Positions 1 through 39,646 of a stretch of DNA of 43,548 bases are shown here, piece after piece (the first letter of the stretch is position 1; every line of letters begins with the position of its first letter). The notes under the pieces were generated by a model, which had not been told where the DNA came from, did not search any database, and saw only the letters and a list, made by a program, of their open reading frames with translations. The stretch is from Bacteroidota bacterium (lineage in GTDB: Bacteria; Bacteroidota; Bacteroidia; Bacteroidales; JABHKC01), in NCBI GenBank assembly GCA_018692315.1, contig JABHKC010000074.1:1-43548 (forward strand), written 5' to 3'. Position numbers and translations under genes: made by a program.

Positions 1-205
1 AAGATTGAATAACCAGGGTTTAAGCTTTCATTCTACTAAAGATATCATCAATGCTGTCGAAAGAGGAAAACTCCCTAATAAGATTATGATGACTTTCCAT
101 CCGCAACGTTGGCACGATTCATTTTTTCCATGGACAAAAGAGTTTGTACTTCAAAATATTAAGAATATTGTTAAACGATTCTTTTTTGTGAAATATATTA
201 CATAA
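1..205 (+). CDS. Polysaccharide deacetylase-like protein, C-terminal fragment (cut by window start)
   Basis: The reading frame is open from the first bases and ends at 205; the true start lies outside the window, so the TTG at 5 is not a real start. The visible ~67 residues contain 'GLSFHSTKDI', 'KIMMTFHPQRWHDSF' and 'WTKEFVLQNIKNIVKRF'. This TFHPQRW...W.KE..QN.KN pattern is the usual C-terminal end of polysaccharide-deacetylase-like proteins in Bacteroidota polysaccharide clusters (recognised from memory). The catalytic domain is not visible, so activity cannot be judged. A sugar transferase gene lies 1.7 kb downstream, consistent with the edge of a surface-polysaccharide cluster. Confidence 0.6.
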   Translation, partial: RLNNQGLSFHSTKDIINAVERGKLPNKIMMTFHPQRWHDSFFPWTKEFVLQNIKNIVKRFFFVKYIT

Positions 206-255
206 AGTTGTTTGAAAAAGTGTGTTGATATACATAATGTTGTTTGAAAAAATGT
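201..255 (+). repeat. Imperfect 23-bp direct repeat, 32-bp period
   Basis: Two copies (201-223 and 233-255) of CATAA(A/T)GTTGTTTGAAAAA(G/A)TGT lie just after the preceding stop codon and upstream of the DUF4143 ATPase start at 282. Each contains a TTTG word. It may be a local duplication of promoter-proximal DNA or an operator pair; function is unknown. Confidence 0.5.
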
Positions 256-258
256 TTG

Positions 259-266
259 TATATTTG
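259..266 (+). promoter_or_regulatory. Bacteroidota -7 box (TATATTTG)
   Basis: A perfect TAnnTTTG box lies 15 nt before the ATG at 282. The nearest TTTG (243-246) is only 12 nt upstream instead of about 19-21, so the -33 element is not convincing. Confidence 0.35.
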
Positions 267-281
267 TGCCAAAAATGAAAC

Positions 282-1595: not shown

Positions 1596-1689
1596 AGTCA
1601 TATGTTTTGTTCATAATGAGATTAATTTTTTATTTGTGAAATAAATTGCAAAGAAATGTTCTGTTTCTGTAATTTGGATTAGCTTTTAA

Positions 1690-1800
1690 TACGGCATCTC
1701 CCTTTCAGGGCTTATTTGGTTTTGGTTGCTTACACAGGGTTTTGTTGCACTCCACCCTATGCTAATATATATCGGAGCTTTGCCCCTCAAAAACAAAATG
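1690..1800. repeat. Degenerate intergenic repeat of Bacteroidota type
   Basis: The 311-bp gap 1596-1906 holds no gene. Its centre contains GC-richer pieces, 'CCCTTTCAGGGC', 'ACACAGGGTT...CCACCCTATGC' and 'TAATATATATCGGAGC'. They resemble the palindromic CCCTTTCAGGGC / CCCTGTGCTAATATAT repeats scattered between genes in many Bacteroidota genomes (family recognised from memory, not searched). Confidence 0.45.
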
Positions 1801-1844
1801 CCAGAATCTCAAAATATTTTTTAGCCAATTCCTGAAAGAAACAA

Positions 1845-1873
1845 TTGTTTATTCCATTTAATATATACTTTTG
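1845..1873 (+). promoter_or_regulatory. Probable promoter of the sugar transferase gene
   Basis: A perfect TAnnTTTG box (TACTTTTG, 1866-1873) lies 33 nt before the ATG at 1907. A partial -33 element (TTG, 1845-1847) is 18 nt upstream. Confidence 0.5.
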
Positions 1874-1906
1874 TGCAGTTTATTGTTTTAATAATTTAAA
1901 AATTAA

Positions 1907-2941
1907 ATGAGAGAAACAATAATTAAAGAAGTAGGTGAGGAGGTTTTTGATTATTTATCAAAATTCACTAAAGTTGTTGATGGTGAGACTCTTGTGGTTT
2001 TTACAAGTTCAGTTTTTAATATAGAGAATCAAGAATTTAATAAATATAAAAACATTGTTAATCTACGAAGGATTAATGATATTATCAGAATTAATAAATT
2101 TTTTGAAGCTGTAAATGTTAAAATTCCAAACAATGGAGTTTTTATTGGGCATGTAGAAACTAAAAATCAGAGGCGAGAAAGATATTTTAGAAAATTTCCG
2201 GCAGTAATAAATCACTTTTTCTATTTTCTTGATTTTATCATTAAAAGAATTTTCCCAAAATTTTTATTAACAAAAAAAATATATTTTTACATTACCGGTG
2301 GAAAAAATCGTGTAATAACTAAAACAGAAACTCTTGGTCGTTTGTTTTCCTGTGGGTTCGAGGTTATCAATGAAAAAGAAATAAACAATCATTTATATTT
2401 TGTTGCCAAAAAAGTAAAAGAACCGGTTTTCGACAATAACCCAACCTACGGACCATTAGTTCGATTGAAAAGGGTGGCAAAAGACGGAAAAATAATTAAT
2501 GTGTATAAGATGAGGACAATGCACCCTTATGCTGAATATTTGCAGGCTTACCTTTTTGATACGAATAATTTAAAACCCGGTGGAAAGTTTAAGGATGATT
2601 ATCGTGTTTCAACAATTGGTAAAATTATGCGAAAATTTTGGATTGACGAACTTCCAATGTTAATAAATCTACTTAAAGGAAATATGAAATTGGTTGGTGT
2701 TCGGCCGCTTAGTAAACATTATTTTAGTTTGTATAGTAAAGAACTACAAGATAGAAGAATAAAATATAAACCCGGATTAGTACCTCCATTTTATGTTGAT
2801 TTGCCAGAAACTTTAGATGAAATTATGGCTTCGGAGAAAAAGTATTTAGATGCTTATGAGAAAAATCCTTTTTTGACAGATGTAAAATACTTTTTTGCAG
2901 CTTTTTATAATATCATGATTAAAAGAGCCCGTAGCAATTAA
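1907..2941 (+). CDS. Bacterial sugar transferase (undecaprenyl-phosphate sugar-1-phosphate transferase family)
   Basis: A 344-residue protein whose C-terminal half is a bacterial sugar transferase domain (PF02397 type). These enzymes move a sugar-1-phosphate from a nucleotide sugar to a membrane lipid carrier, starting polysaccharide or glycan assembly. Seen: 'VYKMRTMHPYAEYLQ' near residues 199-213, 'KDDYRVSTIGKIMRK', the catalytic Asp-Glu dyad in 'WIDELPMLINLLKGNMK', then 'LVGVRPLS' and 'KYKPGLVPP'. The first ~170 residues are less typical and contain a hydrophobic stretch near residues 98-125 instead of the multi-span N-terminus of large WbaP-type enzymes. It has its own probable promoter and a hairpin terminator. 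Sugar specificity cannot be told. Confidence 0.85.
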   Translation: MRETIIKEVGEEVFDYLSKFTKVVDGETLVVFTSSVFNIENQEFNKYKNIVNLRRINDIIRINKFFEAVNVKIPNNGVFIGHVETKNQRRERYFRKFPAVINHFFYFLDFIIKRIFPKFLLTKKIYFYITGGKNRVITKTETLGRLFSCGFEVINEKEINNHLYFVAKKVKEPVFDNNPTYGPLVRLKRVAKDGKIINVYKMRTMHPYAEYLQAYLFDTNNLKPGGKFKDDYRVSTIGKIMRKFWIDELPMLINLLKGNMKLVGVRPLSKHYFSLYSKELQDRRIKYKPGLVPPFYVDLPETLDEIMASEKKYLDAYEKNPFLTDVKYFFAAFYNIMIKRARSN

Positions 2942-2969
2942 TCATATTTTCTAAAGAATATAAACAAAG

Positions 2970-2996
2970 AATCCCTCCCAACAAGAGGGATTTTTT
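2970..2996 (+). terminator. Rho-independent terminator after the sugar transferase
   Basis: An 8-bp stem AATCCCTC / GAGGGATT (2970-2977 and 2985-2992) with a 7-nt loop runs into a T tract on the plus strand. It lies between convergent genes. The minus-strand T tract is poor, so it probably serves mainly the plus-strand gene. Confidence 0.85.
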
Positions 2997-2999
2997 GTT

Positions 3000-3731
3000 T
3001 TATACGATTAGATGATCTATACCGAAAACCTGAACAAATTTTTCGATAAGAACTTTTTGCACCTCCTTTATAGGAACTTCTTCGCCTAAATATTCCTTCA
3101 TTGATGTAACTCCTTTGTCTGTGAAGCCACATGGATTTATATAATTGTAATAATTTAAATCAGTATTCACATTAAATGCCAATCCGTGCATTGTAATATA
3201 TCTGCTTGAACGAACACCTATTGCACATATTTTTCTTGGCTTGGTAATATTTCCGTGAAAAACCCAAACACCAGTAGCTTCATCAATTCGCTGAGCTTCG
3301 ATTCCATAGTTTGCCAAAGTAAGAATAACCACTTCTTCTAAAAGAATAATGTATTTTTTTAAACCTATGCCGAAATTCTCTAAATCGAAAATGGGATATA
3401 TTACAATTTGTCCAAGTCCATGATAGGTAATATCTCCTCCTCTATTTATCTTATAAAAGTTAGCACCAATTTTAGTAAGGTATTCTTCATTAATAAGGAG
3501 ATTTTGAACTTTCCCACTTTTACCAAGAGTGTAAACATGCGAATGCTCACAAATCAATAAATGATTTTTTGTGGAATCAACTTCTTTATTCTTTGATTTA
3601 TTTTTGATTTCAATATTTCTATTGAATAATTCTTCCTGAATATCCCATGCTTTTTTAAAATCAATTCTTCCAAGATCTTTATAAAATACTGTCTTTGACA
3701 CTCTATTTTTTATTAATTCAATTTGCTGCAA
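3000..3731 (-). CDS. lipB: Lipoyl(octanoyl) transferase LipB
   Basis: LipB transfers octanoate from octanoyl-ACP to a lysine of lipoyl domains of 2-oxoacid dehydrogenases and GcvH, the first step of lipoate synthesis. Diagnostic motifs are present: 'HVYTLGKSG', 'RGGDITYHGLGQIVIYP', 'KICAIGVRSSRYITMHGLAFN' with the conserved lysine, and 'YINPCG', whose cysteine is the thioester nucleophile in the family. Length (243) fits family size plus a short N-terminal tail. The upstream start is TTG; a GTG at 3701 would give 'MSKTVFYKDLG', a more typical LipB N-terminus, so the real start may be 10 codons inside. Convergent with the sugar transferase. Confidence 0.95.
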   Translation of the reverse strand: MQQIELIKNRVSKTVFYKDLGRIDFKKAWDIQEELFNRNIEIKNKSKNKEVDSTKNHLLICEHSHVYTLGKSGKVQNLLINEEYLTKIGANFYKINRGGDITYHGLGQIVIYPIFDLENFGIGLKKYIILLEEVVILTLANYGIEAQRIDEATGVWVFHGNITKPRKICAIGVRSSRYITMHGLAFNVNTDLNYYNYINPCGFTDKGVTSMKEYLGEEVPIKEVQKVLIEKFVQVFGIDHLIV

Positions 3732-3879
3732 AACTCCGATTTTTTTTAAAATAATATCCAGTTTTGTGTATTTTTTTTGGAATGTGTTTGAATAAATTTT
3801 GATACTAATTGCGTAACTTCTGAATAATGTATTATCTTTACATTATTTAGAACTTATTAATGTACTGATACAACATTAT

Positions 3880-5172
3880 ATGGAACGTAAAATTGAAAAG
3901 AATTTGTTAGAATGGAAAGATTCTCCAAATTCATTGCCATTAATTATTCATGGAGCAAGGCAAGTTGGCAAAACTTATTCGATATTGGAATTTGGCAAAA
4001 AGTACTTCAAAAATGTGCTGTATTTCAATTTTGAAAGCAACAGCGAACTAACAAAAATATTCGACAAAGACTTGAAACCTGAGCGCATTCTAAACGAACT
4101 GTCTGTTTTTAGCGGAAAGTCGATCTTAGAACATGAAAGTCTAATTTTCTTTGATGAGATACAAGCATCGGAAAAAACACTTACATCTTTAAAATATTTT
4201 GCAGAACAATCTTCTCAATTTCATATAATTGCCGCAGGAAGTCTTCTTGGCGTGGCGATTAATCACGAAAATTATTCATTTCCTGTCGGGAAAGTTGAGA
4301 TGCAAACTTTGTATCCAATGGATTTTGAGGAGTTTCTGTGGGCAATACAGGAAAAAAATGCAGTAGAAATAATTAGAGAATCTTATCGCAACAATTCTGA
4401 ATGCTCTCTTCATCAGCACTTTATTGATCTTTACAAAATATATCTCTGTACGGGTGGATTGCCACAAGTCGTGAAAGAGTATATGGATAAAGGAGATTTT
4501 GATTTTGTATCTATAATTCAAAAAAATATAAACGATGCGTATATTGCTGATATGACAAAGTATGTTTCTCCTACCGAAACAATCAGAATAATGGCTGCTT
4601 ACAATAGCATTCCTGCACAATTGGCAAAAATTAACAAAAAGTTTCAATACAAAATAATTAAATCCGGAGCGAGAGCAAATCAATATGAGCTTTCATTGCA
4701 CTGGTTGAATGCTTCCGGAATAGTTGTTAAATGCTTGAAAACTACCGCAGGGAAATTCCCGTTGAGTCTGCATGCCGAAAACAACTCGTTTAAAATATAT
4801 ATGAACGACAGTGGTCTTCTGTTGTCGAAATTTGGAGTTTCTGCAAATGCAATAATGTCAGGAAATGAAGGATTTAATAACATAAAAGGAATATTGGCAG
4901 AAAATTATGTTGCCAATTCATTAGTAATAAATGGATATGTGCCACATTATTGGGAATCTAAAGGAAAGGCAGAGCTCGACTTTGTTATCCAAACTAAAAA
5001 TGGAGAAGTAATTCCTATTGAAGTAAAATCTTCTGAGAATGTACGTTCAAAAAGCTTGCAGCAATTTGTACTGCAGTATAAACCTCTCTTTTCGATAAGA
5101 ATCTCATTAAGGAACTTTGGGTTTGAAAACAATATTAAATCGATTCCACTTTACGCATGTTTCTGTATTTGA
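3880..5172 (+). CDS. AAA-type ATPase with C-terminal DUF4143 domain (copy B)
   Basis: A 430-residue paralogue of the protein at 282-1595, matching it along its whole length. Shared pieces include Walker A 'GARQVGKT', Walker B 'LIFFDEIQ', 'AAGSLLGVAI', 'SFPVGKVE', 'NSIPAQLAKINKKFQYKIIKSGARA' (split here only by small changes) and a C-terminal 'AELDFVIQ...IPIEVKSSENV' with the same D-Xn-ExK pattern. The copies differ too much to be a recent duplication. The preceding ~148 bp contain a near-consensus TATCTTTA word and no other gene. Function unknown; families of this kind have been suggested to act in defence or toxin-antitoxin settings, but nothing next to it supports that here. Confidence 0.85.
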   Translation: MERKIEKNLLEWKDSPNSLPLIIHGARQVGKTYSILEFGKKYFKNVLYFNFESNSELTKIFDKDLKPERILNELSVFSGKSILEHESLIFFDEIQASEKTLTSLKYFAEQSSQFHIIAAGSLLGVAINHENYSFPVGKVEMQTLYPMDFEEFLWAIQEKNAVEIIRESYRNNSECSLHQHFIDLYKIYLCTGGLPQVVKEYMDKGDFDFVSIIQKNINDAYIADMTKYVSPTETIRIMAAYNSIPAQLAKINKKFQYKIIKSGARANQYELSLHWLNASGIVVKCLKTTAGKFPLSLHAENNSFKIYMNDSGLLLSKFGVSANAIMSGNEGFNNIKGILAENYVANSLVINGYVPHYWESKGKAELDFVIQTKNGEVIPIEVKSSENVRSKSLQQFVLQYKPLFSIRISLRNFGFENNIKSIPLYACFCI

Positions 5173-9787: not shown

Positions 9788-12700
9788 CTATTTAATAATG
9801 TTCATAGCTTTAGTCGCTACGAACGCATCTGTTGAAATTTTATAATAATATGTTCCTGCAGAAAGATTTTTACCATCAATTTTAATTTTGTGGTTTCCTG
9901 CTTCGAAATCATTATTAACAACTTCTTCTAATTTATCTCCAATTAGATTGTATATTGAAATTGTAACAAATTTACTTTCAGGTAAATAAAATTCAATTTC
10001 TGAATAATCTGAAAATGGGTTTGGAACATTTTGGCTTATAGAGAAATGACTATTTCCTACAAGTGAAACTTTTTCGGCAATGCTAATGCCATTTGTTGAA
10101 TAAGTTTCTTCTCCTTTTTCCCATGATTCCACAAAAAATACTTCTTCAATATTTGTAGAGCTATTCCACAATTTGAATGTCATATTTTCATTGTCCATTA
10201 ATCCTTCTATAGATTCGGTTGTTTCGTCGTTTCCCCAAACGGAAACCGCTAAGTTAGTATTTGAAAATACTGTAGATCCAACCAAAACCCCATTAGCGTT
10301 GAAAACACCTAATTCATCTCCGCTATTTGGAACAACATTCCATGCAGATTTTGGAAAACCTATTGTCATATTCGTACCAGTGTTTTTAACATTTTTAAAA
10401 TGAACTGGTACTTGGTTAATTATTGTTGATTTAGACAAATAACCATTAGGAGGATAAGAGAAATTGACGGCACCGCCAAGTGTATTAATCTTAATTTGAT
10501 ATCCTTGACCAGGAACCATATTTCCAATTAGGTTTAGGTTAATTTCTGGCCAATATACTTGACCCATAGAGTTTTTAACCAGTGAAATACGATTTGTTAC
10601 GTTGTTCATTCCTCCATTATAAGTATCCATAAAGATATAATCTATTGAAGCTTCAGAGAATCGTAGATATCCTAACATACTCCAACCGACTGGTACTGAA
10701 AGTACTATATTTTCAGGGATAATTTCTTGACCTACTACGGCGAGAGTTGCAGTATTAGCCATTTTAACTTGATATCCTTCTCCTATAGCAATTGTTCCAA
10801 TTCCGTCAATAATAAATGGTCCGAATAATCCATATGGTGCAAAAATATTTCCATATCCATCTTTAATTATTATTAAATCGCTCATAATATTTGCAAATAC
10901 GTTAACAACGCTATCACTTGGAGCAAGAACATCAATATATGTTGATATAATATTCCAATTTTGATTTAATGCGATGTATTGAGTATCAACACTTGATGGG
11001 TCGAAACCAATTGATAATAAGCCGCTAATACCATTTTCTTCATATGCATCTATGTTTTGGTAGCTTACATCGTAAGTAGCAACAGCTGGATATGTATATC
11101 CATTTGTAACATCCCAAATTCTCCAAGTAAATGTTTCAAGATCGTCAAAACCATCTTTCTCAATAGTTAATCCATCGTCTCCCCATGCACTTAGGGCTGT
11201 GTTGCTTCCTTCCCATCGAACATATCCTCCACAAGCTGGAACACCTGATGAATCGTAAAATACTCCTAAATAATCTCCAATTCCTATATCTAATCCAACT
11301 GCATTTATTGGAATATGTATAGTATGATTATTACCAGTAAATGGAGCATACCAATGAGGAGCTTCTAATGAGTAAATTGAATATGAAGAGCTAACTTGAC
11401 ATCCATTGTTATCTGTAACAGTAACTGTGTAAGTTCCAGATCCGATATTAGCTAAATCTTCAGTAACATCATTTGTGTTCCACAAGTATATGTAAGGATA
11501 GGTACCACAACATACATAATTGTCAATCATTCCTGAAATGCCTGTAATAGAATCAGTTCCATAAAGGGTAGATGATAATTCACATGGTTGGTTCAGCACA
11601 ATAGATGTAGTTTCAAAACAACCAAGGCTATCTTCAATTATAACACTGTACATACCGGCAGTAATATTTGTCAAATCTTCTAAGTTTGAAGAGAATCCAT
11701 TATCACCGGTCCAGGTAGCATTGAATGGGAATACTCCACCACTAATAAATAAATTTATAGAACCATTAGCATCACCATAACAAAGAGGTTCGCTTATTTG
11801 AGAATTTATCAATATTTCATCATGTCCGTGAATAGTAAGTGAGAATATTAATTGACAAGAATTAATATCTGTAACAGTAACAGTATAATCACCTTGTACT
11901 AAATCGCTTCGAGGATTAATTAAAGATCCATCCATCCATTGGTATGTATAAGGTGCTGCTCCTCCGAAAGGATCAATATCAACATAGCCTGTTGCATCAC
12001 CAGCACATAATACATTAAATACTGATGTTGAATCGAAAGAATATGTCATTGGTGCAGGATCAATCAATGTTATTGGCAATTGAGCTGATGAGGAAACATT
12101 ACATCCGTTTGCATCAGTAACAGTAACATCATATACGAAATTTCCAGGAATTCCTACAAGGTCTTGAGTTACTGCTCCATTTGTCCATAAATAAGAATAT
12201 GGGCTAGTTCCGCCACCTACACTAATATCAATTGCTCCATCGCTTGAATTATTACAAGAAATTTGGGTTTCATCTATAACTAATACAGACATTGGATTAG
12301 GTTGATCTACTGTAAAGCTACCTGTTGTCGTACAGCCTCTTGCATCACTTGTGATAGTTACGCTATATATTCCTGCACCTACTGTTACATCTTGAGTTGT
12401 CATTAAATTCGACCAAGTGTATGAGTATGTCTGAATTGCATCAAATCCTGGGTAGAAACCTCCGGCAACATTTGATAAATCAATTATTCCATCTGTAAAT
12501 GTAAAACAACTAACATTAAAAATGTTACTGTTAAAAGACATTTGGTCCGGTTCATAAATAGTAATACTATAAACTGAAGCACAGCCATTTGCATCCCACA
12601 TTGACAATGGATATACACCGGCTGAAATATTGGCATATTGTGCTACATTAGCTGTGTAATTAGTTGTGTCATAATCGAATGAGTACATATATGGCGGAGT

Positions 12701-15700
12701 TCCACCCATTGCTTCGATTGATACAGTTGAGGATTCACCAAAACATTGGATAATATCTCCTGTTAAGTTTCCTAATGTAATTGGGTCTGGTGGAGGACTG
12801 ATTTGAGCACTTGCACTGTTTGTACATCCCCAGCTATCTTCTATAGATATTGTATAGGTTCCATAGTTCAAATTGAAAATAGAATCAACAGTACCAGTAC
12901 CTGATACAAATGTCCCACCTGAAGTTTGTCCTGTTGACCAAGTAATAAGGTATGGACTTTCGCCTCCGTTTAAAATTAATGAAATTTCGCCGGTTGTATT
13001 TAATATACATGGAGGATCGAAAGCTGTAAGTATTGGAGTAATTGCATTGGCTGATTGTATAATTCCTTGTGAACTCACTTTTTCGCAACCAAGAGCATCA
13101 GTAACAGTAATTAAATATGTTCCTGCACCAATATTTGTTACATTTACATCGGTAGAACCATCAAACCAAAGGTAAGTATATGGCGCAGTACCACCCATAC
13201 CTTGTGCTATTAAATTACCATTTGTTTCACCGAAGCAGACATAATATTCGAAATTAGTTGTTATTGGAAGTGCAGAATTAAATGATACATTTACTGCAGA
13301 AGGTTCTGATAAGGTTGCACTAATTGTAGCAGTACAAAGATTATCATCAGTAACAGTAACAGTGTATGTATCGGCAGTTAATAATATTAAATCCTCAAAA
13401 CTTGATATGTAGGTTCCATTAGAGGTTTCCCAGTGATATGTGAAAGGGCTTGTTCCACCAGATACACCAAGATTTATTGCTCCTGTACTTTCACCATTAC
13501 AACTAACATTCGTTGTGTTCTGAATTAGTAAAGCTAATGTATTTGGCTGATCAATCGTATAATTAGCTGTAATAGAACAACCGTATAAGTCAGAAACTAC
13601 TACACTATAGTTTCCAGCAGGGAGATTTGATATATCTTGATCTGTACTACTGTTATTCCATAGATATGTATATTGGTTCCAACCGCCGAATGGAGTAATA
13701 TCAATAGCTCCATTACTTTCACCGTAGCATTGAACATCTACTGTAGCTGAGTTTGTGATAATTAAATCGTTTGCAGGTTGAAGTATTGTTGCTGATTCAA
13801 TATCAGTACAAGCATTGTCGTCAAATACAGTAACTGTATATGTTCCTGCAATCAAAGCATTATTGATAAAGGATGTTTCACCATCTGACCAAGTATATGT
13901 ATAATCTGAAGGAATACCTGTTCCTGAAATTGTACCACCAATTGGAATAGCTGTGATACTTCCCGTGTTTGCTCCATAACATATATTTGGAATCAAATTT
14001 AACTGAACCGATACACTTGTTGCAGGTTCTGTTAAAGTTCCATTAACTGAGGTAACACAATTATTGTTATCCGTTACGGTAACTTCATAGGCATTTGCAA
14101 TTAAATTATTTATATCCTCTGTTGTTTCTCCATTTGACCATAAATAAGAATATGGAGTTGTTCCACCAATAACTCCTAAATTTATTTCTCCTGTGTTGTC
14201 TCCATGACAAAGGATATCAGTAATAGAAACAAAATTTGCTTCTAATAAATTTGGTTCATCAACAATAAATGAACCGGAAACGGTACAACCATATAAATCT
14301 GAAACAACAACATCATAAGTATTTGCATTTAATCCTGAAATATTCTGAGTAGTTGATGAATTACTCCATAAATAAGTGTATGCTCCCCAACCACCATCTA
14401 CTGTGATATTAATAGCACCATTGCTTTCTCCAAAACAATTTGCATTAGTAACAAAGTCGTTCAAAATCATTAAATCACTTGCAGGTTCTTGTATTGTTGC
14501 ACTTTGAGTAACAGTACAAGCATTATCGTCTGAAACAGTTACAGAGTAAGTATTTGCAGGTAATCCGAGAATTTGGAAATCGGTACTACCATTTGACCAT
14601 GCATAAGTATAATTTCCTACAACTGTTCCGCCATTAGGTAATGCAGTGATTTGACCTGAATTAGCATTGTAGCAAATATATGGGAAGTAATTTAGTTGAA
14701 GTGATATTGATGTTGTAGGTTCGGTTAAAGCCGTTGTGCTGATATCAGTACAACCATGTGAATCGGTTACTGTTACAGAATAATTCCCGGCAGGTACAGA
14801 ACTTAGGTCTTCAGTTATTTCAAAGTTTGACCAAAAGAAGGTGTAGCCTGGAGAACCTCCAGTTACGCTATGCTCAATTTCGCCTGTGTTTTCTCCATTA
14901 CAAAGAATATCAGTTACAGAAGTAATGCTTGATACTAATTCTGTAGGTTCATCTACAAAATAAGTTCCAGTTGCAAAACATCCTATTAATCCATCAGAAA
15001 CTGTTACTAAATAAGTCCCTGTAGTTAGATTTATTAAATCTTCTGCATTAGAACCATTATCCCATACGAAAACATTTGATCCCCAACCACCATTAGTTGA
15101 GATATTGATTGATCCAGTATTTTCGCCAAAACAGTTTGCATCAATAACTGTTGAATTACTTATTTCCAATAGAGCCAAAGGTTGATTAATTGTTGCTTGT
15201 TGCGTAACACTACAACCATTATCGTCAGAAACAGTTACCTCATATGTTCCAGCAACTAAACCTGAAATTTGGAATGTATTGCTGCCATTAGACCAAATAT
15301 AGTTATAATCTGTTGGAGTCCCAGCTCCTGGAACAGTACCACCGGATGGAATTGCAGTAATACTTCCGGTATTCGCACCATAACAAATATTTGCCATATA
15401 ATTTAGTTGTACTGAAATAGCGGCAGCAGGCTCAGTAATAGATGTACTAATAATATCTGAACATCCATGTGAATCAGAGACTGTTACACTGTAGTTTCCA
15501 GCAGGGAGAGTATTGATATCTTCTGTTATTTCGCCGTTCGACCATAAATAACTATAGTTTGGAGAACCTCCATTAACTCCCAAATCAATTGAACCTGTAT
15601 TATTTCCATTACAAAGAATATTTGTTGTTGAATTAAAATTCAATTGTAAATCTGTTGGTTCATCAACGAAATAGCTTCCAACTACAAAACATCCTACTAT

Positions 15701-18700
15701 ATCTGTAACAGTAACAGAGTAATTTCCAGTAGGAATATTAATTAGGTCTTCAGTTGTTGCAGCATTACTCCATAAATAGGAATTTAATCCCCAACCACCA
15801 AAGCTCGTTATATTTATTGAGCCATTGCTTTCTCCAAAACAGTTTGCATCAGTTACTGATTGGTTATTTATTACTAATAAATCTGTAGGTTGATTAATTG
15901 TTGCTTGTTGGGTAACAGTACATCCATTATCATCAGAAACTGTTACTTCATAAGTTCCTGCAGTTAAACCAGAAATTTGGAAAGTATTTCCACCATTAGA
16001 CCAAATATAGCTATAATCCAATGGGATTCCAGTTCCTGAAATTGTTCCACCTGAAGGAATTGCAGTAATACTTCCAGAGCTTGCACCATAGCAAATATTT
16101 GCTACATAGTTCAACTGAACAGATACCTCAGATGCAGGCTCTGTTAGAGTTGTGCTAATTGTTTCACTACAACCATTTGCATCTGAAACAGTTACTTCGT
16201 AAGTATCAGCAATCAGATTAGTAATATCTTCTGTTGTTGAGTTATTTGACCATAAATAATTATATGGAAATGTTCCTCCTGCAACGCCAATATAAATATC
16301 ACCACTGTTATCGCCATTACAAAGAATATCTGTTGAAGAATCTATATTCAAATTCAAAACTGAAGGTTGACCAACAGTATAAGTTGCAATAGCAGTACAT
16401 CCTATTACACCATCGGTAATAGTTACTGTATAATTGCCTGAAATTAAGTTTATTAAATCTTCAGAAACAGCACCATTACTCCACAAAAATGAATATGAAC
16501 CCCAACCACCAAAAGGTGTAATGTCAATTGCTCCGTCAGAATTACCAAAACAATCTGCATCATCAATTGTTGAACTACTTATTTGTAATAAATCTGTAGG
16601 CTGATTAATTGTTGCTTGCTGAGAAACAGTACATCCATTATCATCAGAAACTGTTACTTCATATGTGCCGGCAGTTAAGCTAGAAATTTGAAATGTATTT
16701 CCACCATTAGACCATAAATAATTATAATCGGTAGGTGTACCTGAACCGGAATATGTTCCACCAGTAGGAATTGCAGTAACATTTCCTGTACTTGCCCCAA
16801 AACAAATATTTGGAAAATAATTTAATTGAACTGATACTGCACTTGCAGGTTCAGATAAAGTTGCATTTATAGTTGAACTACAACCATGGGCATCTGTAAC
16901 AGTAACATCATAAGTATTAGCAATTAGATTTGCAATATTTTGTGTCGTTTCAGTATTCGACCATAGATAATCGTAAGGCGTTGTTCCTCCAACAACACTA
17001 AGATCAATTGCTCCTGTATTTTCCCCGAAACATAAAATATTCGTTGTGGATGGTATGCCAAGAGTTAAGGCATTTGGCTGATCAACAAAATAACTTGATG
17101 TTGCAATGCAATTATTAGCATCTGTTATGGTTACACTGTAGGTTCCGCTTTGCAAATTTTGAATATCTTCTACAATTTGTCCATTGCTCCATAAGTAAGT
17201 ATAAGATCCCCAACCTCCTTGAGGAGTAATATCTAATGCTCCATTACTTTCACCAAAACAATTTACATCAGTAGTTATTGTTCCATTAATATATAAAGTG
17301 TCTAATGGTTGAACAATTGTTGCCGATTGGCTAACTTCGCAACCATTATCGTCAGAAACAGTAACTCCATATGTGCCGGCAGTTAATCCAAGATTTTGGA
17401 AAGTATTGTTACCATTTGACCATTGATATGTGTATGCCGTAGTTCCACTACCGGCTACTGTTCCTCCTGAAGCTACAGCTGTTATTTGTCCTGTATTTAC
17501 TCCATAACAAATATTTGGGAAATAGTTTAATTGTACAGCTGTTGAAGTTGCAGGCTCTGTAATTGTCAAAGAAACTGTATCAGTACAATTTTGAGAATCT
17601 GAAATAATTACAGTAAAAGTTCCAGCATTAAGATTACTGTTTGTTGAGCTTGTTACTGCATTGTTCCATAAGTATGAATATGGTGGTGTTCCACTAACTA
17701 CTGAAGTAGTTATTTCACCTGTTGGAATATTTTTACATAACAAGTCTGTTCCAGACAAAGAGGCAACAGGCATAACAGGTGGATTAATAGTAGCTGAAGC
17801 AGTTGCCTGACATCCGTTAAAATCGGTTACAGTAACAGAATAAGTACCTACAGAAAGTCCGCCAACATAAGCAGATATTGGATTTCCCGGAGCATCCCAA
17901 AAATATGAATATGCCGGAGTACCACCGCTTGGGATTGCATTTACTGAGCCAACAAAATTTATACAATCTTCATCTGTTTTATTAATTACAGTTGATAGAA
18001 CATCTGGTTCATTTACAATAAAACTTTCACTTTCCTGGCATCCCGAAGTATTATGAGTTACATTCAAAGTATAGGTTCCGGCTACTAAGCCAGAAATATC
18101 TTCAGAAACTCCTCCATTTGACCAAAAATACATAAAGTTTGTTGAGGGACCGAAGTTAATATTTACTGTAGGATTAATTGCACCATCTGAAAGACCATTA
18201 CATGAAACACCTGTTATAATTGAACTAAAGGTAATCTCAGAATTTTCTTCTATTACAGTAACGCTTTCAGTATGTGTACATGAATTTGCATCAGAAATCG
18301 TTACAGTATATGTTCCGGCAGATAAGCCTGGTACAGAATATGTTGTGGGATTTCCAGGGGCATTCCAGCTGTAAGTATATAGTGGAGTACCGCCATTAGC
18401 AACTATGGAAACTTCACCATTTGAACCTTGAAAACAAGTAACATCAGTTTTAGAAATCGTTCCTGCAAGCTCAGTTGGTTGAGTTATCTCAAAGGTTGAA
18501 TCTTTTAAACAACCATTTCCGTCAATAATTTGAACTGAATATTGACCTGCACTTTGATTTGATATAAATTCTACTGTTGAAATAGTTGTGCCACCTGAAG
18601 TCCATGTACCACCTTCTTGCCAATCATATGTAAATGGAGTGGTTCCGTTAAGTATTAATTGTAATCCTCCATTGCTTCCTCCAAAGCAGCTAACTTCTGT

Positions 18701-19279
18701 TTCTGAGACTGTAATATTAAATGTTGCTTGCTGAACCATATCCGAAGTTACCGCATTACACATATTTGCATCAGTAACAAGTACAGTATAGACTTGTCCT
18801 CCTACAAGGTTGCTAATGTCTTCTGTTGTCGCTCCATTGTTCCAGAAATAAAAATATGGAGGTGTTCCTCCTGAAACTGTCAAATCAATACTACCTGATG
18901 AATTACATGTTTCATCAGTAATATTAAGCTGTAATTGCAAACTAGGTGGTTGCGAAATGCTTACAGTACTCATGGCAGTACTACCTCCTTGGCCTGTAAC
19001 AGTTACTGAATAAGTTGTGGGATATAGAAATGAAATATCCTCAGTTGCATATGTAAAACCATAACCACTTTGCCAGAAATATGAATATGGACCTGGAAAT
19101 GCGACTTGATCAACTGTAAGGTTTATTGCACCTTGAGGTTCATAGGCACAGGCCGCATTAGTAATAGCAAAGGTTAATGGTCCGTCAATAATCGTTGTAT
19201 CCTGAGCCAAAGTAGTTGAGCTATGTAGTAAAAAGCTCAGGAATACACTGAAAATTAAAAAGTAATAGATTTTTTTCAT
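9788..19279 (-). CDS. Giant SprB-repeat surface protein with T9SS type A sorting domain
   Basis: A 3163-residue exported protein. Signal peptide 1-26 (ends 'TTLAQ'). Residues ~27-2640 are about 33 consecutive SprB-like units of 72-86 residues with the pattern C-[FYN]-G...G.I.....GG..PY.Y.WSNG..T..I..L.AGTY.VTV.D..GC; nearly every unit has two cysteines. Units 8-25 (residues 586-2002) form six A-B-C triplets. Then: a 'GDYLGVFYDSSG...WGDDG' module (~2645-2775), a paired 'GW...YW/GYQ(V/I)K' module (~2776-2945), a second 'GDELGVFNANG...WGNDE' module (~2955-3075) and the sorting domain ~3078-3163 ('NVPNPFSDYSEIEFYLP', 'LSAGTYYYKI', 'ATKAMNIIK'). SprB of Flavobacterium is a T9SS-delivered gliding adhesin; an adhesin or surface-filament role is inferred here. 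Cleavage of the tail and attachment through A-LPS is the usual fate of such proteins. Monocistronic, with a terminator behind it. Confidence 0.93.
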   Translation of the reverse strand: MKKIYYFLIFSVFLSFLLHSSTTLAQDTTIIDGPLTFAITNAACAYEPQGAINLTVDQVAFPGPYSYFWQSGYGFTYATEDISFLYPTTYSVTVTGQGGSTAMSTVSISQPPSLQLQLNITDETCNSSGSIDLTVSGGTPPYFYFWNNGATTEDISNLVGGQVYTVLVTDANMCNAVTSDMVQQATFNITVSETEVSCFGGSNGGLQLILNGTTPFTYDWQEGGTWTSGGTTISTVEFISNQSAGQYSVQIIDGNGCLKDSTFEITQPTELAGTISKTDVTCFQGSNGEVSIVANGGTPLYTYSWNAPGNPTTYSVPGLSAGTYTVTISDANSCTHTESVTVIEENSEITFSSIITGVSCNGLSDGAINPTVNINFGPSTNFMYFWSNGGVSEDISGLVAGTYTLNVTHNTSGCQESESFIVNEPDVLSTVINKTDEDCINFVGSVNAIPSGGTPAYSYFWDAPGNPISAYVGGLSVGTYSVTVTDFNGCQATASATINPPVMPVASLSGTDLLCKNIPTGEITTSVVSGTPPYSYLWNNAVTSSTNSNLNAGTFTVIISDSQNCTDTVSLTITEPATSTAVQLNYFPNICYGVNTGQITAVASGGTVAGSGTTAYTYQWSNGNNTFQNLGLTAGTYGVTVSDDNGCEVSQSATIVQPLDTLYINGTITTDVNCFGESNGALDITPQGGWGSYTYLWSNGQIVEDIQNLQSGTYSVTITDANNCIATSSYFVDQPNALTLGIPSTTNILCFGENTGAIDLSVVGGTTPYDYLWSNTETTQNIANLIANTYDVTVTDAHGCSSTINATLSEPASAVSVQLNYFPNICFGASTGNVTAIPTGGTYSGSGTPTDYNYLWSNGGNTFQISSLTAGTYEVTVSDDNGCTVSQQATINQPTDLLQISSSTIDDADCFGNSDGAIDITPFGGWGSYSFLWSNGAVSEDLINLISGNYTVTITDGVIGCTAIATYTVGQPSVLNLNIDSSTDILCNGDNSGDIYIGVAGGTFPYNYLWSNNSTTEDITNLIADTYEVTVSDANGCSETISTTLTEPASEVSVQLNYVANICYGASSGSITAIPSGGTISGTGIPLDYSYIWSNGGNTFQISGLTAGTYEVTVSDDNGCTVTQQATINQPTDLLVINNQSVTDANCFGESNGSINITSFGGWGLNSYLWSNAATTEDLINIPTGNYSVTVTDIVGCFVVGSYFVDEPTDLQLNFNSTTNILCNGNNTGSIDLGVNGGSPNYSYLWSNGEITEDINTLPAGNYSVTVSDSHGCSDIISTSITEPAAAISVQLNYMANICYGANTGSITAIPSGGTVPGAGTPTDYNYIWSNGSNTFQISGLVAGTYEVTVSDDNGCSVTQQATINQPLALLEISNSTVIDANCFGENTGSINISTNGGWGSNVFVWDNGSNAEDLINLTTGTYLVTVSDGLIGCFATGTYFVDEPTELVSSITSVTDILCNGENTGEIEHSVTGGSPGYTFFWSNFEITEDLSSVPAGNYSVTVTDSHGCTDISTTALTEPTTSISLQLNYFPYICYNANSGQITALPNGGTVVGNYTYAWSNGSTDFQILGLPANTYSVTVSDDNACTVTQSATIQEPASDLMILNDFVTNANCFGESNGAINITVDGGWGAYTYLWSNSSTTQNISGLNANTYDVVVSDLYGCTVSGSFIVDEPNLLEANFVSITDILCHGDNTGEINLGVIGGTTPYSYLWSNGETTEDINNLIANAYEVTVTDNNNCVTSVNGTLTEPATSVSVQLNLIPNICYGANTGSITAIPIGGTISGTGIPSDYTYTWSDGETSFINNALIAGTYTVTVFDDNACTDIESATILQPANDLIITNSATVDVQCYGESNGAIDITPFGGWNQYTYLWNNSSTDQDISNLPAGNYSVVVSDLYGCSITANYTIDQPNTLALLIQNTTNVSCNGESTGAINLGVSGGTSPFTYHWETSNGTYISSFEDLILLTADTYTVTVTDDNLCTATISATLSEPSAVNVSFNSALPITTNFEYYVCFGETNGNLIAQGMGGTAPYTYLWFDGSTDVNVTNIGAGTYLITVTDALGCEKVSSQGIIQSANAITPILTAFDPPCILNTTGEISLILNGGESPYLITWSTGQTSGGTFVSGTGTVDSIFNLNYGTYTISIEDSWGCTNSASAQISPPPDPITLGNLTGDIIQCFGESSTVSIEAMGGTPPYMYSFDYDTTNYTANVAQYANISAGVYPLSMWDANGCASVYSITIYEPDQMSFNSNIFNVSCFTFTDGIIDLSNVAGGFYPGFDAIQTYSYTWSNLMTTQDVTVGAGIYSVTITSDARGCTTTGSFTVDQPNPMSVLVIDETQISCNNSSDGAIDISVGGGTSPYSYLWTNGAVTQDLVGIPGNFVYDVTVTDANGCNVSSSAQLPITLIDPAPMTYSFDSTSVFNVLCAGDATGYVDIDPFGGAAPYTYQWMDGSLINPRSDLVQGDYTVTVTDINSCQLIFSLTIHGHDEILINSQISEPLCYGDANGSINLFISGGVFPFNATWTGDNGFSSNLEDLTNITAGMYSVIIEDSLGCFETTSIVLNQPCELSSTLYGTDSITGISGMIDNYVCCGTYPYIYLWNTNDVTEDLANIGSGTYTVTVTDNNGCQVSSSYSIYSLEAPHWYAPFTGNNHTIHIPINAVGLDIGIGDYLGVFYDSSGVPACGGYVRWEGSNTALSAWGDDGLTIEKDGFDDLETFTWRIWDVTNGYTYPAVATYDVSYQNIDAYEENGISGLLSIGFDPSSVDTQYIALNQNWNIISTYIDVLAPSDSVVNVFANIMSDLIIIKDGYGNIFAPYGLFGPFIIDGIGTIAIGEGYQVKMANTATLAVVGQEIIPENIVLSVPVGWSMLGYLRFSEASIDYIFMDTYNGGMNNVTNRISLVKNSMGQVYWPEINLNLIGNMVPGQGYQIKINTLGGAVNFSYPPNGYLSKSTIINQVPVHFKNVKNTGTNMTIGFPKSAWNVVPNSGDELGVFNANGVLVGSTVFSNTNLAVSVWGNDETTESIEGLMDNENMTFKLWNSSTNIEEVFFVESWEKGEETYSTNGISIAEKVSLVGNSHFSISQNVPNPFSDYSEIEFYLPESKFVTISIYNLIGDKLEEVVNNDFEAGNHKIKIDGKNLSAGTYYYKISTDAFVATKAMNIIK
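13274..17524 (-). repeat. Higher-order tandem repeat: six ~708-bp A-B-C triplets of SprB units
   Basis: Within the giant gene, units recur with a period of three. A units begin (Y/L)xPNICYG-like and contain 'NTFQISGLTAGTYEVTVSDDNGC'-type text; B units begin with 'CFGESNGAINIT' and 'GGWG'; C units begin 'TTNILCNG' and end 'EPA..VSVQLN'. Triplet starts on the minus strand are at 17524, 16819, 16108, 15400, 14689 and 13996, giving lengths of 235, 237, 236, 237, 231 and 241 codons. Total 4251 bp, exactly in frame. This indicates amplification of a three-unit block. Confidence 0.9.
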
Positions 19280-25648: not shown

Positions 25649-28600
25649 TTATTTAGAAATGCTCATCTGTTTAGTTGCAACAAAATTGTCAGTAACAATT
25701 TTATAGAAATAACTACCGGCTGCATGATCATTAGCAAAAAATTCTACTGAATGACTACCTGCACTATAATTATTTGAAACAACATTTTCTAACAATTCTC
25801 CAAGAACATTATATACATTAATTTGAACGTATGTGTCTTCAGGAAGATAAAAGTCAATTTTTGTTGATTTTGCAAAAGGATTTGGAATATTCTGATTTAG
25901 TGCGTAACTAACATTTTCTGATAAAGCAAGTTTGCCAACAACACTAATTCCATTGCTTTCGAAGTTTTCACTACCTTCAATCCAATAGATTACTTCAATA
26001 TTTTGCTCATCATTTGAATTATTGCTCCAAAGTTTGATTGTATATTTTTCACCATCCGAAATAGCTTCAGTATTTTCAGTTGTGAAATCGTCTCCCCAAA
26101 CTGCAATTGCAATATTTTCACCTGTATAAACAGTGCTACCAATAAGCTCATTTGAAGAGTTAAAAACTCCAATTTCATCTCCTAAAACAGGAAGATTAGT
26201 CCATGATTCTACAGGAATACCGAGAATCATACTGTTTCCTGTATTCAAAACATTTGAGTATTTTACAGGAGCTGTATTAATAATACCACTTTTCGCTGCA
26301 TTTGCTGTGTTTGCAGGATATGTAAGTATTGTAGCAGCAGTTGTTTTAATTTGATATCCTTGACCTGGCATAATATCTCCAATTGCATTAAGTCCGTAAA
26401 GTGGCCAGTAAACTAAACCAATTCCGTTTTTAACAATTGTGATATCTGAAACTATTGGTGCTAACATAGTTGCTATGTTTGCAGGACTTTGACGTAGATA
26501 TCCAAGGTAACTCCAACCATTAGGTATTGAAATTGGTGCAAGTTCAGGAACAACAGGTGTACCTGTAACTTCAAGCATTTGATAAGTATTCATTTTTACT
26601 TGATAACCTTCTCCAATTGTCAAAGAACCTATTGTATTTAGCAAATATTGTGGCCAATATACCATACCCGAACCGTTTTTAACAATAACTACATCTGAAA
26701 TTACTGGTGCAAAAACAGCTTCTAAGCTAGGATCGGCAGGATTCATAAATGTTGATATAATACTCCATCCTTGTGCTAATTCTACAAATTGAGATAAAGC
26801 TGGAGAAACAGCAGTTAGTGATCCAATTCCACTCATTCCGTTACTAAAGAATAGGTCGGTATTTGGGAAGAATCCTACCAGATAAGTTGCAGTTGCATCA
26901 AACTCTTCACCAGTTGAAGTTTTGTATAATTTCCATGTAAATACTTCATTTTGAATGAAACCATCAACAATATTTGCAGTGTCTAAACCGTCATATCCGA
27001 ATGCTGCAATTGATGTTGTTACACCTGTCCATTCAGCCAAACCTCCACATGCAAGGTCTCCATTATCATTTGTATAGAAAACTCCAATGAAATCTCCAAT
27101 CTCAATTGGTTGTCCGTCAATAGTAATATCAGCTACCATCATAGGTGGTTGATTTGGTATAAGTATAGTATGATTTGTTCCTGAAATATTTACTGGCCAT
27201 GGTGCCAATAAATCACCGGTAATACTTAAATTATAAGTTCCGAAGCTATTATAATATCCATATACTTTTGCATAATAGGTTCCTGTTGACAGTTCTGGAA
27301 TAGTAATTTGAGAATTATTCCCAATTCCACAAGCTACAAAATCGTCGTCGTTGAAAGCAATGTATTGCATAGCTCCACAATTGTCCCAAACTTCGAGTAT
27401 AGTATTGAAACCTGATCCACAAAGCGATACTACAACATTTACATAATTATCATCTAAAGTAAAACTCCACCATGCAACATCATTAGGACCTGTTGTAACG
27501 CCAGTAACAGCAGGGCTATTGATAATTCCATAATAGGTGGCATCTACACATTCCTGAGGAAATACACATGTACCATCATCGGTGTTAGCCAATGGATTAT
27601 AGTTTAATGACAATGTATCAAGACAACCATAAACAACAGCTACACAAGAACCGTCGTCGGTGTTAGCAAGTGGATCGAAATTGAATGAAGTTGGGTCTGT
27701 ACAGCCATAAATAAATGGAACACATGAACCATCGTCCATATTCGCAAGTGGATCATAATTTAACATCATGGTATCAGTACAACCATACACAATAGGAATA
27801 CAAGAACCATCATCGATAGTTGCAAGTGGATCATAATTTATTGAATTAATATCTGTACAACCATAGACTGGTATTGTTTCAGTAATAATAAAATCAAATG
27901 CACCTGGTCCCCAGTAGTCATCCCAGAAAAGGTAATATGTTTCTCCTAAAGTAACAGAGAAGTTTAGATCTGAGGCGTAATTATATTCAGTACAGTATGC
28001 ATCGTCATTGAAATACATATAGGTTCCTCCACAACTTGCATAAACTTCAAGTCTTGTATCTTCTAATTGTCCCGAAATACATGTAGTAATGTTTACATCT
28101 CCTGTTAATGTTGGATTATAAACAAACCATTGATTAACTCCTGTTGCTGCATTTGTTCCAGGATAAGCAGGAATTGGATTTGCACAATCGCTACCAGGTA
28201 GAATTGAAGCTGTTATTGTATAAGTAACCGCATCAAAACATGTTGTATCATTTGGATCAGAAACGGTACAGGTAACATCATAAGTTCCAGGTGCTACATA
28301 GGTATAAGTATATGAATCAACATTGCTTGTTGTTCCTCCATCTCCAAAGTCCCAATCGATTGTATATCCGGCACTGGCATAAAGATTATTTAAAACAAAA
28401 TCGAATGACAGGTCTCCATTATCACTGTATGTAAAGTCTGCATCAAGCATACAGCCAGCTCCACAAGAAACTGTTACAGATCCACCGGCAGGCTCAACTC
28501 CTCCAACTCCATCAGAGAATATGGTAACTCCATTTCCGTCGGTTACTGTATATGCATTTTCATATCCCCAACTTCCTGGGGTATAAGCAAATGATAATAA

Positions 28601-31600
28601 ATCTCCATCAAAAGCAGAAACAATATAAGTCTCAGGACCTGCGCCACTTGCTAATGTAATTCCAGTAAGACTAACACTTCCGTTTACACTGACATCTAAT
28701 GCTCCGCCATTCCATCCATCGCCATAATCATCAGTTAAGGAAATTGTATAATCGCAAGGTGTTGGGCAAACTGCAGAGAACGAACCACCAGTAGGTACTA
28801 CTCCTCCAATACCATCAGAAAATGCCAGAATACCATCGGCATCATAAAAATTATAGCTATTTTCATATCCCCAACTACCTTCAGTATAAGTAACAGAAAC
28901 AGCATCGCCATTATTTACCATCAATGAAACTAATTCCGGGCCAGCGCCTGAAGCTAAAGTAACTCCACTTAAAACAACTGAACCGTTTAAACTTATATCT
29001 AAAGTTCCGCCATTCCAGCCATCGCCATAATCATCCAGTAGCTCAATTGTGTACATACATCCACCGAAAGGCATTTGAGTTGTGAACATCCACTGATCGC
29101 AAGCACTTGCAGTTCCAAATGCATTGTAAGGTTCTACAGACCAAGTATATGTCATTGAATAATCAAGGAAAACTGGTATATATGAAGTAACATTTCCAAC
29201 ATCAACGCTGGTTCCGTTTAGTGTAAAATAATATCCATCGGCACCTGAGGCAGCATTCCAGCTAAATGTTGGATATCCTGCATCTAGATTAATGTCTGCA
29301 CTATCCAAAGGTAAAGTATATGTTACACAAGCTGGTGCCTGTACTAAAGCTTCTCCAATTGAAATGTTATCTAAGGACATATCTGAAGTGTAACCATTAC
29401 CTCTTAAACCTCTGAATCGAAGTTTAACAGTCATATTTGCATAGGTAGAAAGACTAACTCCATATTCAGACCATGCATCACCACCGGCAGTATGTTGCTG
29501 ACCAATAATGGCAGGAGCTACATCTAATACCCAACCTGAGCCGGCATCAATATCTATATGAAGTTCTCCCATATCTATACCGTACATATGATAGTAAAAA
29601 GTAAGATATGGATTAGTTAAAGCTGACAAATTAATTGGAGGACTAATCATATGACCTGCATCACCAAGTACTCCACCAGAAGTTTCAAGGAATACATAAA
29701 TTCCGCCTGATACTCCATAGTTTGTATGATCGTAAAAAGGTCCTGTGCTACTTGAGTTTTCATTTGCTCCTGTAGCATCTTCAGTTTCCCATTTAGGATT
29801 TACAGTGCCTTCAAGTGTCCAGCCATTTGTAAGCATACCTCCATATTGAGCCGCGGATTCTCCTTCAAAATCAGCAAGATATGGGAATGTAGAAATGGTT
29901 GGGTCATTCATTGTTGTAAAAGAATAGGTTGAACAACCGGTAGCAGAGCCATTTGTGTTGTATGAAACTATAGACCAATAATATGTAGTTGCATAAGCAA
30001 GTCCGGTTGGCATATAGCTTGTAACACTTCCTACATCAATACCATTAGAAACATTAGTAGGTGGATTATCAGTTCCTAAGAAAAGATAATATCCATCAGC
30101 ACCGGCTGCGCTACTCCATGTAAGGCCTTCGTTAAGGTCCAGACCAACTGCAGCATCAGCAGGGAATGTTAAATTCGCACATGATGGCGGTTGAACATTT
30201 TCAGCTACTGAAATATCATCAAGATATAAATAGTTAGTAGCATATTTATTAAAATGGTAGAAACGAATAGTAACAACATTTCCTATGTAAGAAGCAAGAC
30301 CTTCAATTCGTTCTGTATGCGGAGTAGCTGCTCCTGCTGTTTGAGTCGCAAACAATTCTGTCCAGGTACCTGATCCATCATTAATAAATACCCAGAAGTT
30401 ATTGTAATTATTATTATACTGATATCCTAAAGCATAAAAGTACTTTAAAGCTGGATTTGTAGCAGTTGTTAAGTCAACAACCACATCAAGATATTGGGAC
30501 CATGCTTCATGCGATCCACCTGGTTGTCCTTTTACCCAAGCATCAGCCTGACCACTTGGAGTTGTAAATCCGGAGCTTAAATCAGCAAAAGCTTCTAAAC
30601 CAAATGATCCGGTATTTGCAGCAGTTGCAGAAGTTTGCATAGTTCCATTTGATGCTCCTACCGTAGTTAACCAGTATCCGGGAATGAATCCTAGTTCCCA
30701 ATCTTCGGTGAAAGGTAAGGTTTGAGTTGGATTGCCCATAGTTGTAAATGACCATATAGTGCATCCTGTAGCATTTCCACTTGTATTATATGGCACTATG
30801 CTCCAATAATAGGTTGTGTTATAAGTTAATCCTGAATATGCATAAGTTTGTGCTGTTAGCATATCTGTTCCATTTACAATATTTGTTGGATTTGCAGTTC
30901 CGCCACCGTCAGTTCCAAAATATAAATAATATCCATCGCAAAAAGCCAGGTCCCATGTTAAGTTCCCAAATACATTGATACTAATTGCAGCATCTATTGG
31001 GAAACTTGGAGTAGTACATGTGGGAGGTCCTGAAGCAGCAGTGCCATCAAACTGCATATTTGGACGTTGCATAAAAGTCCCTGAGCTTAATGTATTTGCA
31101 CAAATTCCGGCTGCGTCAGCTCGATAATGCAAAGTAGAACTAAATGTTGTTGCTGACTGGTTTACAATGGCATTATTATTATAAGCAGTATTATTAAAAC
31201 AAGTCTCAATAATCAGATTACTTGTTCCGTCCCAAGATATTGGGTTTGAAAAAGTATGAGTATTCCAACCCGTAACCTCTATATATGCAACATTTAGATA
31301 TACACTTGTTAATCCTGTTTCCCATGTTGATAAAGCTGAAGTTGAGGTAAATCCGGCTTTAATTTCAAAATTAGTTAGTGGACTACCATCAACAGTTACA
31401 ACATCAAAGGCGACTGAATTGATTGGACCAGCAACCATTCCGGCAGCACTCAACTCAGAGGCTAAAATCAGAAATTGATGTTTAGCACCATACCAAAAAT
31501 TACCATATGGAGCAGGATAACCAGTGCTGGTATTATTTATTGTTCCAGTTCCCACAGTAATAGTCGTAGCAAACATTGCCAGACTATAGAAGGTTAAGAA

Positions 31601-39402: not shown

Positions 39403-39439
39403 ATTATATATGTAAGTGGCTGTCTTTTTTGACAGTTTG

Positions 39440-39471
39440 CAAATATAGTTTTCATATATGATTTTTGCAAA
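39440..39471 (-). promoter_or_regulatory. Promoter of the PNGase F-like gene (TTTG-N20-TATATTTG)
   Basis: Complete Bacteroidota promoter on the minus strand: TTTG at 39468-39471, 20-nt spacer, TATATTTG at 39440-39447. The ATG is at 39402. A small hairpin CTGTC/GACAG (39420-39435) lies around the expected transcription start. Confidence 0.8.
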
Positions 39472-39646
39472 TGATGATTGGAAACGGAAACAAACTCTGC
39501 TGGGGAGCAACTTGTATGGTATAGAATCATCCCTACAAAGTATAACACTGAAACGGATTTCATTTCCCTTTCCTTTTTTGAAGGTATAATTAGTTTCTTT
39601 CAAGAAAATGTATTATTTTGCTAACTTTTAAATAAAATATTAAGTA

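Follow-up and report, generated by a model that had tools for sequence, protein, structure and literature searches.

The stretch of DNA analyzed here (the window) comprises the 43,548 nucleotides of contig JABHKC010000074.1 from a Bacteroidota bacterium (assembly GCA_018692315.1; Bacteroidales, JABHKC01) and carries on its reverse strand a giant gene whose product strings together 33 SprB units and ends in a sorting tail of the type IX secretion system (T9SS) (Table 1). In the following, C74 denotes this gene and its array, other C numbers denote contigs or genes of the same genome, and L numbers denote loci outside this genome. The SprB repeat family PF13573 scores 679.9 bits on the giant against a curated cut-off of 28, with 25 stretches passing individually, and the sorting tail is recognized by PF18962 (48.0 bits) as well as by TIGR04183 (35.8 bits; cut-off 23). 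A gene for the T9SS translocon SprA (TIGR04189, 2746 bits) is found on contig C149. We consider it probable, at roughly four in five, that the middle of the giant was built by old tandem duplications of a three-domain block and that cassettes of several domains are the building material of the giants in this lineage.

With unit borders set by the end strand and the linker, units 8–25 form six successive A-B-C triplets that run from position 17551 down to 13301 and measure 231–241 residues each. This segmentation into 33 units recovers the period of three that an initial annotation of the sequence had described for the same units; the triplet starts given there fall in identical units and were merely read about nine residues later. 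A diagonal spacing of about 708 bp had been named beforehand as a check, and offsets of 708, 1419, and 711 bp indeed rank at the top of the DNA self-comparison among all offsets from 50 to 3999, as do offsets of 236 and 473 residues among those from 20 to 1499 at the protein level. The mean protein identity between units 8–25 at lags one to six amounts to 0.38, 0.36, 0.60, 0.38, 0.36, and 0.56, respectively; units of the same class share 0.569, units of different classes 0.374, and flank pairs 0.305. None of 20,000 shuffles of the unit order reached the same-class value of 0.569 (best 0.528), which rules out a chance order of units. Tandem Repeats Finder, whose longest period is 500, does not list the array.

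Phylogenetic trees of the units lead to the same partition. In trees of the 33 window units, class A forms a clade in both protein (support 99/98) and DNA (100/100), class B forms a clade in DNA (97/95) with flank unit 29 nesting within it in protein, and class C is weak in DNA (66/74). In a tree of 72 rows, composed of the 33 window units together with 19 from gene C17 and 20 generic ones from the same genome, A (100/98), B (99/95), and C (96/89) each form a clade of six, these bootstraps being rough and not settled. The three clades expected from the initial annotation are thus present in the larger tree, with C the weakest of them and incomplete in the 33-row trees. Together with the lag identities, the 72-row tree rules out that units 8–25 were amplified one by one; offsets, lag identities, shuffles, and unit trees all agree with the earlier suggestion that amplification worked on three-unit blocks.

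Table 1. Layout of the giant gene C74 in the window (all features on the reverse strand).
Feature	Position	Strand	Remark
Giant gene: 3,163 aa; 33 SprB units followed by a C-terminal module and a T9SS type A sorting tail	9788..19279	-	
Likely signal peptide, residues 1–26	19202..19279	-	by eye from the translation
Units 1–3, a single D-E-F cassette as in gene C17	18476..19198	-	unit tree, collinear run
Units 4–7, outside the ABC pattern; unit 7 mildly C-like	17552..18475	-	
Triplet 1 (8A 9B 10C)	16847..17551	-	705 bp
Triplet 2 (11A 12B 13C)	16136..16846	-	711 bp
Triplet 3 (14A 15B 16C); used for the structure model	15428..16135	-	708 bp
Triplet 4 (17A 18B 19C)	14717..15427	-	711 bp
Triplet 5 (20A 21B 22C)	14024..14716	-	693 bp
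Triplet 6 (23A 24B 25C); 5-residue insert in the C unit	13301..14023	-	723 bp
Units 26–33, diverged SprB, outside the pattern	11369..13300	-	
C-terminal module (query region)	9791..11380	-	
T9SS type A sorting domain, residues 3086–3155	9815..10024	-	

The initial annotation had further suggested that such a block naturally lends itself to changes in protein length by recombination, which would make the window gene a live length switch whose triplet number is altered today by misaligned recombination. Here the data point the other way: Neighboring triplets share 61–73% of their DNA sequence and triplets in general 60–73%, i.e., they are 27–40% different. Where the residue is conserved between two units, the identity of their codons is 0.565 at lag three (0.498 expected from codon usage) and 0.503 between classes (0.495 expected); the silent codons of the triplets are nearly randomized. 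Across the 15 triplet pairs, the synonymous divergence (dS) ranges from 0.86 to 1.72 and the nonsynonymous divergence (dN) from 0.20 to 0.42, with the lowest dS in pairs 2–3 (0.86), 2–4 (1.00), 2–5 (1.04), and 3–4 (1.05) and the lowest dN in pairs 3–4, 2–3, and 2–4. The block duplications in C74 are thus old, the latest ones having taken place in the middle of the array, where triplets 2–4 are most alike, followed by divergence. Tandem in-frame copies would allow three units to be gained or lost with the frame preserved, a younger block duplication exists in the related C108/C7 array (see below), and one of six exact repeats of at least 20 bp in the C74 array (39, 24, 23, 20, 20, and 20 bp), the 39-bp one, lies at an offset of 711 bp. 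However, synonymous-codon shuffles yield up to six such repeats (1.56 on average), the longest measuring as much as 43 bp, and hence the observed number and length are by themselves no evidence of identity at the DNA level. Given the high dS, the near-random silent codons, and a longest exact repeat of only 39 bp, C74 is a poor substrate for present-day recombination, and we judge such recombination within the array to be unlikely and a length switch operating today to be very unlikely.

We then looked beyond the window gene at related blocks in the same genome. The best matches of an A-unit profile outside C74 lie on C135 and C9, followed by C7. When 45 rows of the family are placed in a joint tree with 24 generic units, the main clades gather 11 of the 14 A rows (from C74, C135, C9, and C7; 98/76, with inner supports of 98/87 and 100/96), 10 of the 16 B rows (C74, C53, C135, C108, and C7; 97/89), and 9 of the 15 C rows (C74, C53, and C7; 94/84), the C clade also taking in one generic unit. 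C9 and C108/C7 have in common a second version of both A and B (three rows each; 99/82 and 100/93), and two C135 rows that had been labelled one unit out of phase nonetheless joined A and B. The order of classes is also shared: None of 5,000 label shuffles reached the value observed for C74 with C108+C7, and the shared order is also supported for C108+C7 with C9 (27 of 5,000) and, more weakly, for C74 with C9 (81 of 5,000). These results show the presence of the ABC block in C108/C7 and C9, that is, in at least two other genes, and a likely presence in C135. C53 starts within a B unit at the start of its contig and could either continue C135 or belong to a different gene.

The flanks of the C74 array had been described as not following the pattern. 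This is correct for the ABC order, but units 1–3 belong to a different block: The 72-row tree places them in three classes of the sister gene C17, namely D (100/99), E (92/84), and F (82/84), in that order; the array of C17 has its best lag at four. Both arrays open with these three units in collinear order, and their mean identity of 0.60 was reached by none of 300 shuffles. The fourth class of C17, G, forms no clade, and window unit 4 is equally distant from G and from generic units (identity 0.33 to each). The N-terminal flank of the window array is thus one copy of a block of which C17 has about four.

A younger instance of block copying is found on C108 and C7, where the end of the former and the start of the latter are identical over 141 bp. 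C108 by itself contains a 280-bp stretch that is repeated 699 bp away with 93.2% identity, and when the sequence is followed across the join, the repeated stretch extends to 822 bp at 89.5% identity (dS 0.28, dN 0.071). As 699 bp correspond to three units, one three-unit block of this array was duplicated recently. The longest exact match between the two visible copies is 90 bp, so these copies alone do not account for contigs that break with 141 bp in common. A third copy hidden from view, or a variant from another strain, would account for it, which is a guess on our part. Besides C108 and C7 themselves, the only match in the genome (E ≤ 1e-10) is 88 bp long at 77% on C178. The genome is a draft of 248 contigs with many SprB genes and with contigs that end inside SprB arrays, and the triplets of the window array could in principle have been mis-assembled from reads of several giant genes. 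However, they differ by 27–40% in DNA and share at most 39 bp exactly, far less than the 141-bp overlap at the contig join, so that an assembler had no reason to confuse them; moreover, the reading frame is open throughout. An assembly artefact is consequently the least probable of the explanations considered, with a chance we would call slight at best.

To place these arrays in a wider context, we surveyed the window together with 20 genome regions and 80 further loci from genome_contigs (1,816 units in total), which provided 77 arrays with at least eight units. The 80 loci were kept out of 95 confirmed ones and were picked by A-unit motifs, so they are no random sample. In a maximized test over periods two to six, 12 of the 77 arrays gave a signal that none of 200 shuffles reached, and periods 2, 3, 4, 5, and 6 were all represented. 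The best single lag was significant (at most 5 of 1,000 shuffles) in 16 of the 77 arrays, 13 of which had it at lags 2–6: Lag 1 was found in three arrays, lag 2 in one, lag 3 in two, lag 4 in six, lag 5 in three (two of these being pieces of a single reading frame), and lag 6 in one. Within this genome, two of nine arrays were significant, namely C74 and C17. Apparently nested profiles were seen in L120 (two within four) and L094 (three within six). The arrays also differ in how much exact sequence their blocks share: The longest exact repeat measures 1,389 bp in L100 (a Flavobacteriales metagenome-assembled genome; 915-bp offset), 788 bp in L154 (Phaeodactylibacter luteus KCTC 42180; 441-bp offset), 230 bp in the four-unit array L120 (Aureispira; 942-bp offset), and 90 bp in C108 (699-bp offset), compared with 39 bp in C74 (711-bp offset) and none of at least 20 bp in L122 and C17. 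In apparent age, the arrays thus range from fresh (L100, L154) via L120 and C108 to C74 and finally L122 and C17, and L100 and L154, both with multi-unit blocks, are good candidates for live length variation. In the genome of C74, SprB units were also noted (G000:C35:43867-44181) within a reading frame that stays open for 11,871 residues.

The ABC classes themselves were sought outside the genome as well. An A-class unit had no match at E ≤ 1e-24 in 392 other genomes of the order (at most 14 candidates per genome scored) and none at E ≤ 1e-18 in 394 other genomes of a partly overlapping sample of the class (at most 13 candidates per genome scored); these cut-offs are strict, and a diverged A elsewhere would escape them. 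Among the 80 kept loci, neither A nor B outscored a generic model in any unit.

For insight into the fold, one ABC triplet (triplet 3) was modeled with AlphaFold2 on an alignment of 111 SprB triples, 105 of which are not window triplets. The model consists of three all-β domains (pLDDT 97.3, pTM 0.84); a model of five units on a 7-row alignment was unusable (pLDDT 44.3). The nearest solved chain to the triplet model is Grappling hook protein A (GhpA), with a VIA Z-score of 11.1 and a root-mean-square deviation of 4.4 over 217 of 236 residues at about 24% identity, and Foldseek likewise matches the model to GhpA (E 5.2e-10, TMq 0.58). GhpA forms hooks that are used on other cells. The next VIA chain comprises the immunoglobulin (Ig) domains of NCAM, which are unrelated and reach a Z-score of 9.8, so the margin in fold alone is modest; a profile of the 111 SprB triples, in addition, matches GhpA by sequence with an E-value of 2.2e-21. 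GhpA of Aureispira sp. CCB-QB1 (PDB 9flw, 9flp, 9flu, and others) accordingly shares homologous Ig-like units with the window giant. None of these results shows a hook in the window giant. A phmmer search with a 2,000-residue part of the Aureispira array L120 against the PDB gave no match at 1e-5 and therefore no tie to GhpA. With the SprB gliding adhesin of Flavobacterium johnsoniae, the window giant has the SprB repeats and the T9SS in common. The C-terminal tail of that adhesin is of type B. The window giant, in contrast, carries a type A tail.

We also considered whether A-B-C constitutes a structural or functional super-domain, for example with A-specific contacts or a ligand site, whose order is kept by selection whatever made it. 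Class identity has persisted despite nearly randomized silent sites, and the ABC order recurs in other genes. Moreover, class A stands out: Counting residues present in at least five of six units of a class and in at most two of the twelve units of the other classes, A has 22 class-specific positions, B nine, and C five; A units carry an insert, and their mean proportion of nonsynonymous differences (pN) is the lowest (0.22 versus 0.33 for B and 0.31 for C). The slow change of class A fits a constraint on A and is no proof of it. Slow protein change alone would preserve class identity for a while after silent sites have become saturated, and the triplet model, being built mostly on generic triples, cannot reveal A-specific contacts. 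In addition, the period varies, with three- and four-unit blocks in the same genome and blocks of two, four, five, and six units in other species, which speaks against selection for threes and makes the period look like a frozen accident of each array. We therefore regard a selected super-domain as improbable.

Our preferred explanation remains block duplication. The product of the window gene would be a long T9SS-exported surface fiber of Ig-like SprB domains, a fiber or spacer role being suggested by the modeled fold and the tail, and its middle part would have arisen by repeated tandem duplication of one A-B-C block to give six. The tandem in-frame copies suggest recombination as the route: After the first duplication, the best partner for misaligned recombination or slippage would have been located three units off, which would have kept the period. 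Since then, silent sites have been nearly randomized, with amino acids changing more slowly and class A most slowly of all. The stalk of the fiber most likely grows by whole blocks, and block number would set fiber length. As related A-B-C blocks occur in other giant genes, the lineage would assemble its giants from multi-domain cassettes, with ABC used in C74 and at least two further genes and DEF once in C74 and about fourfold (as DEFG) in C17.

A number of observations weigh against this explanation. In the 33-unit protein tree, C is no clade, as units 7 and 31 intermix with it and unit 25 drops out, and the C-type score is not distinctive, with one unit each in L096 and L103, both from other species, scoring as C above the generic model. 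Outside the main clades of the joint tree lie three of the 14 A rows, six of the 16 B rows, and six of the 15 C rows; the three B rows beyond both B groups and the six C rows scatter. The label tests for C135 and C53, with two units each, are powerless, as roughly every second shuffle attains the observed value in the computable cases. Among 190 gene pairs, C74–C17 is the only one at ≤1/300 in the collinear-run test, which has little power and missed the C108–C7 pair too. Finally, C108 and C7 were joined by us on their common end, and the period-three excess of the joined array is reached by 32 of 5,000 shuffles with the recent duplicate and by 562 of 5,000 without it.

Expansion by blocks has precedents in other protein families. 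Domain repeats are known to expand by duplication of several domains at once, often in the middle of the array (Bjorklund, Ekman and Elofsson 2006, PMC1553488). Those repeats and C74 have in common an autocorrelation peak at a multi-domain lag (here lag three), the most similar copies in mid-array, and block sizes that vary among arrays. That units of the same class are relatives in a tree holds for all classes of our 72-row tree. Seven bacterial proteomes named in the domain-repeat study are not from Bacteroidota. Here, by contrast, the array is that of a SprB giant with a T9SS tail, and a single genome has related cassettes in several of its genes. The Periscope Proteins are, like the window giant, bacterial surface stalks of tandem folded domains, and the work on them links length variation to high DNA identity of the repeats (PMC8201768); this high identity has no counterpart in the C74 triplets. 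A report of higher-order repeats in SprB giants was not found in the literature searched, in which subscription journals are thinly covered. As far as these searches show, multi-domain block duplication is hence already known for domain repeats and apparently undescribed for SprB giants.

Further features of the window and the genome are recorded here for completeness. The C-terminal module of the giant has 153 whole or partial matches genome-wide at E ≤ 0.001, some with an internal stop, which constitute a large family of related surface proteins. The same kind of module is found in a second giant of the window (25649–31645; 1,998 aa) with MAM and PKD domains and a T9SS tail, which contains a tandem repeat of a 78-bp unit in 3.9 copies at 27564–27865. 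Two AAA_14/DUF4143 ATPases (282–1595 and 3880–5172) flank a sugar transferase gene, and a T9SS-tailed protein at 35965–39603 combines a laminin-G-like domain with a PNGase F C-terminal domain.

Taken together, block copying, which is sometimes fresh, looks like a recurrent way of building SprB giants rather than like a length switch that is demonstrably at work in C74. A broader proposal can be offered only tentatively, and we ourselves have more doubt than confidence in it: SprB giants of Bacteroidota might generally be cassette mosaics in which blocks of two to six units duplicate and spread between genes, each array with its own period, and in fresh cases block number might act as a heritable, fast-changing setting of fiber length. 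Independently of this proposal, the results indicate that the growth step of SprB giants is often a multi-domain block; how these proteins reach thousands of residues has apparently not been described so far. The arrays form a series from fresh to worn blocks, in which L100, L154, and C108 are those in which to seek length variation at the strain level, and the situation at C108/C7 suggests that short-read assemblies may break precisely at the youngest blocks.

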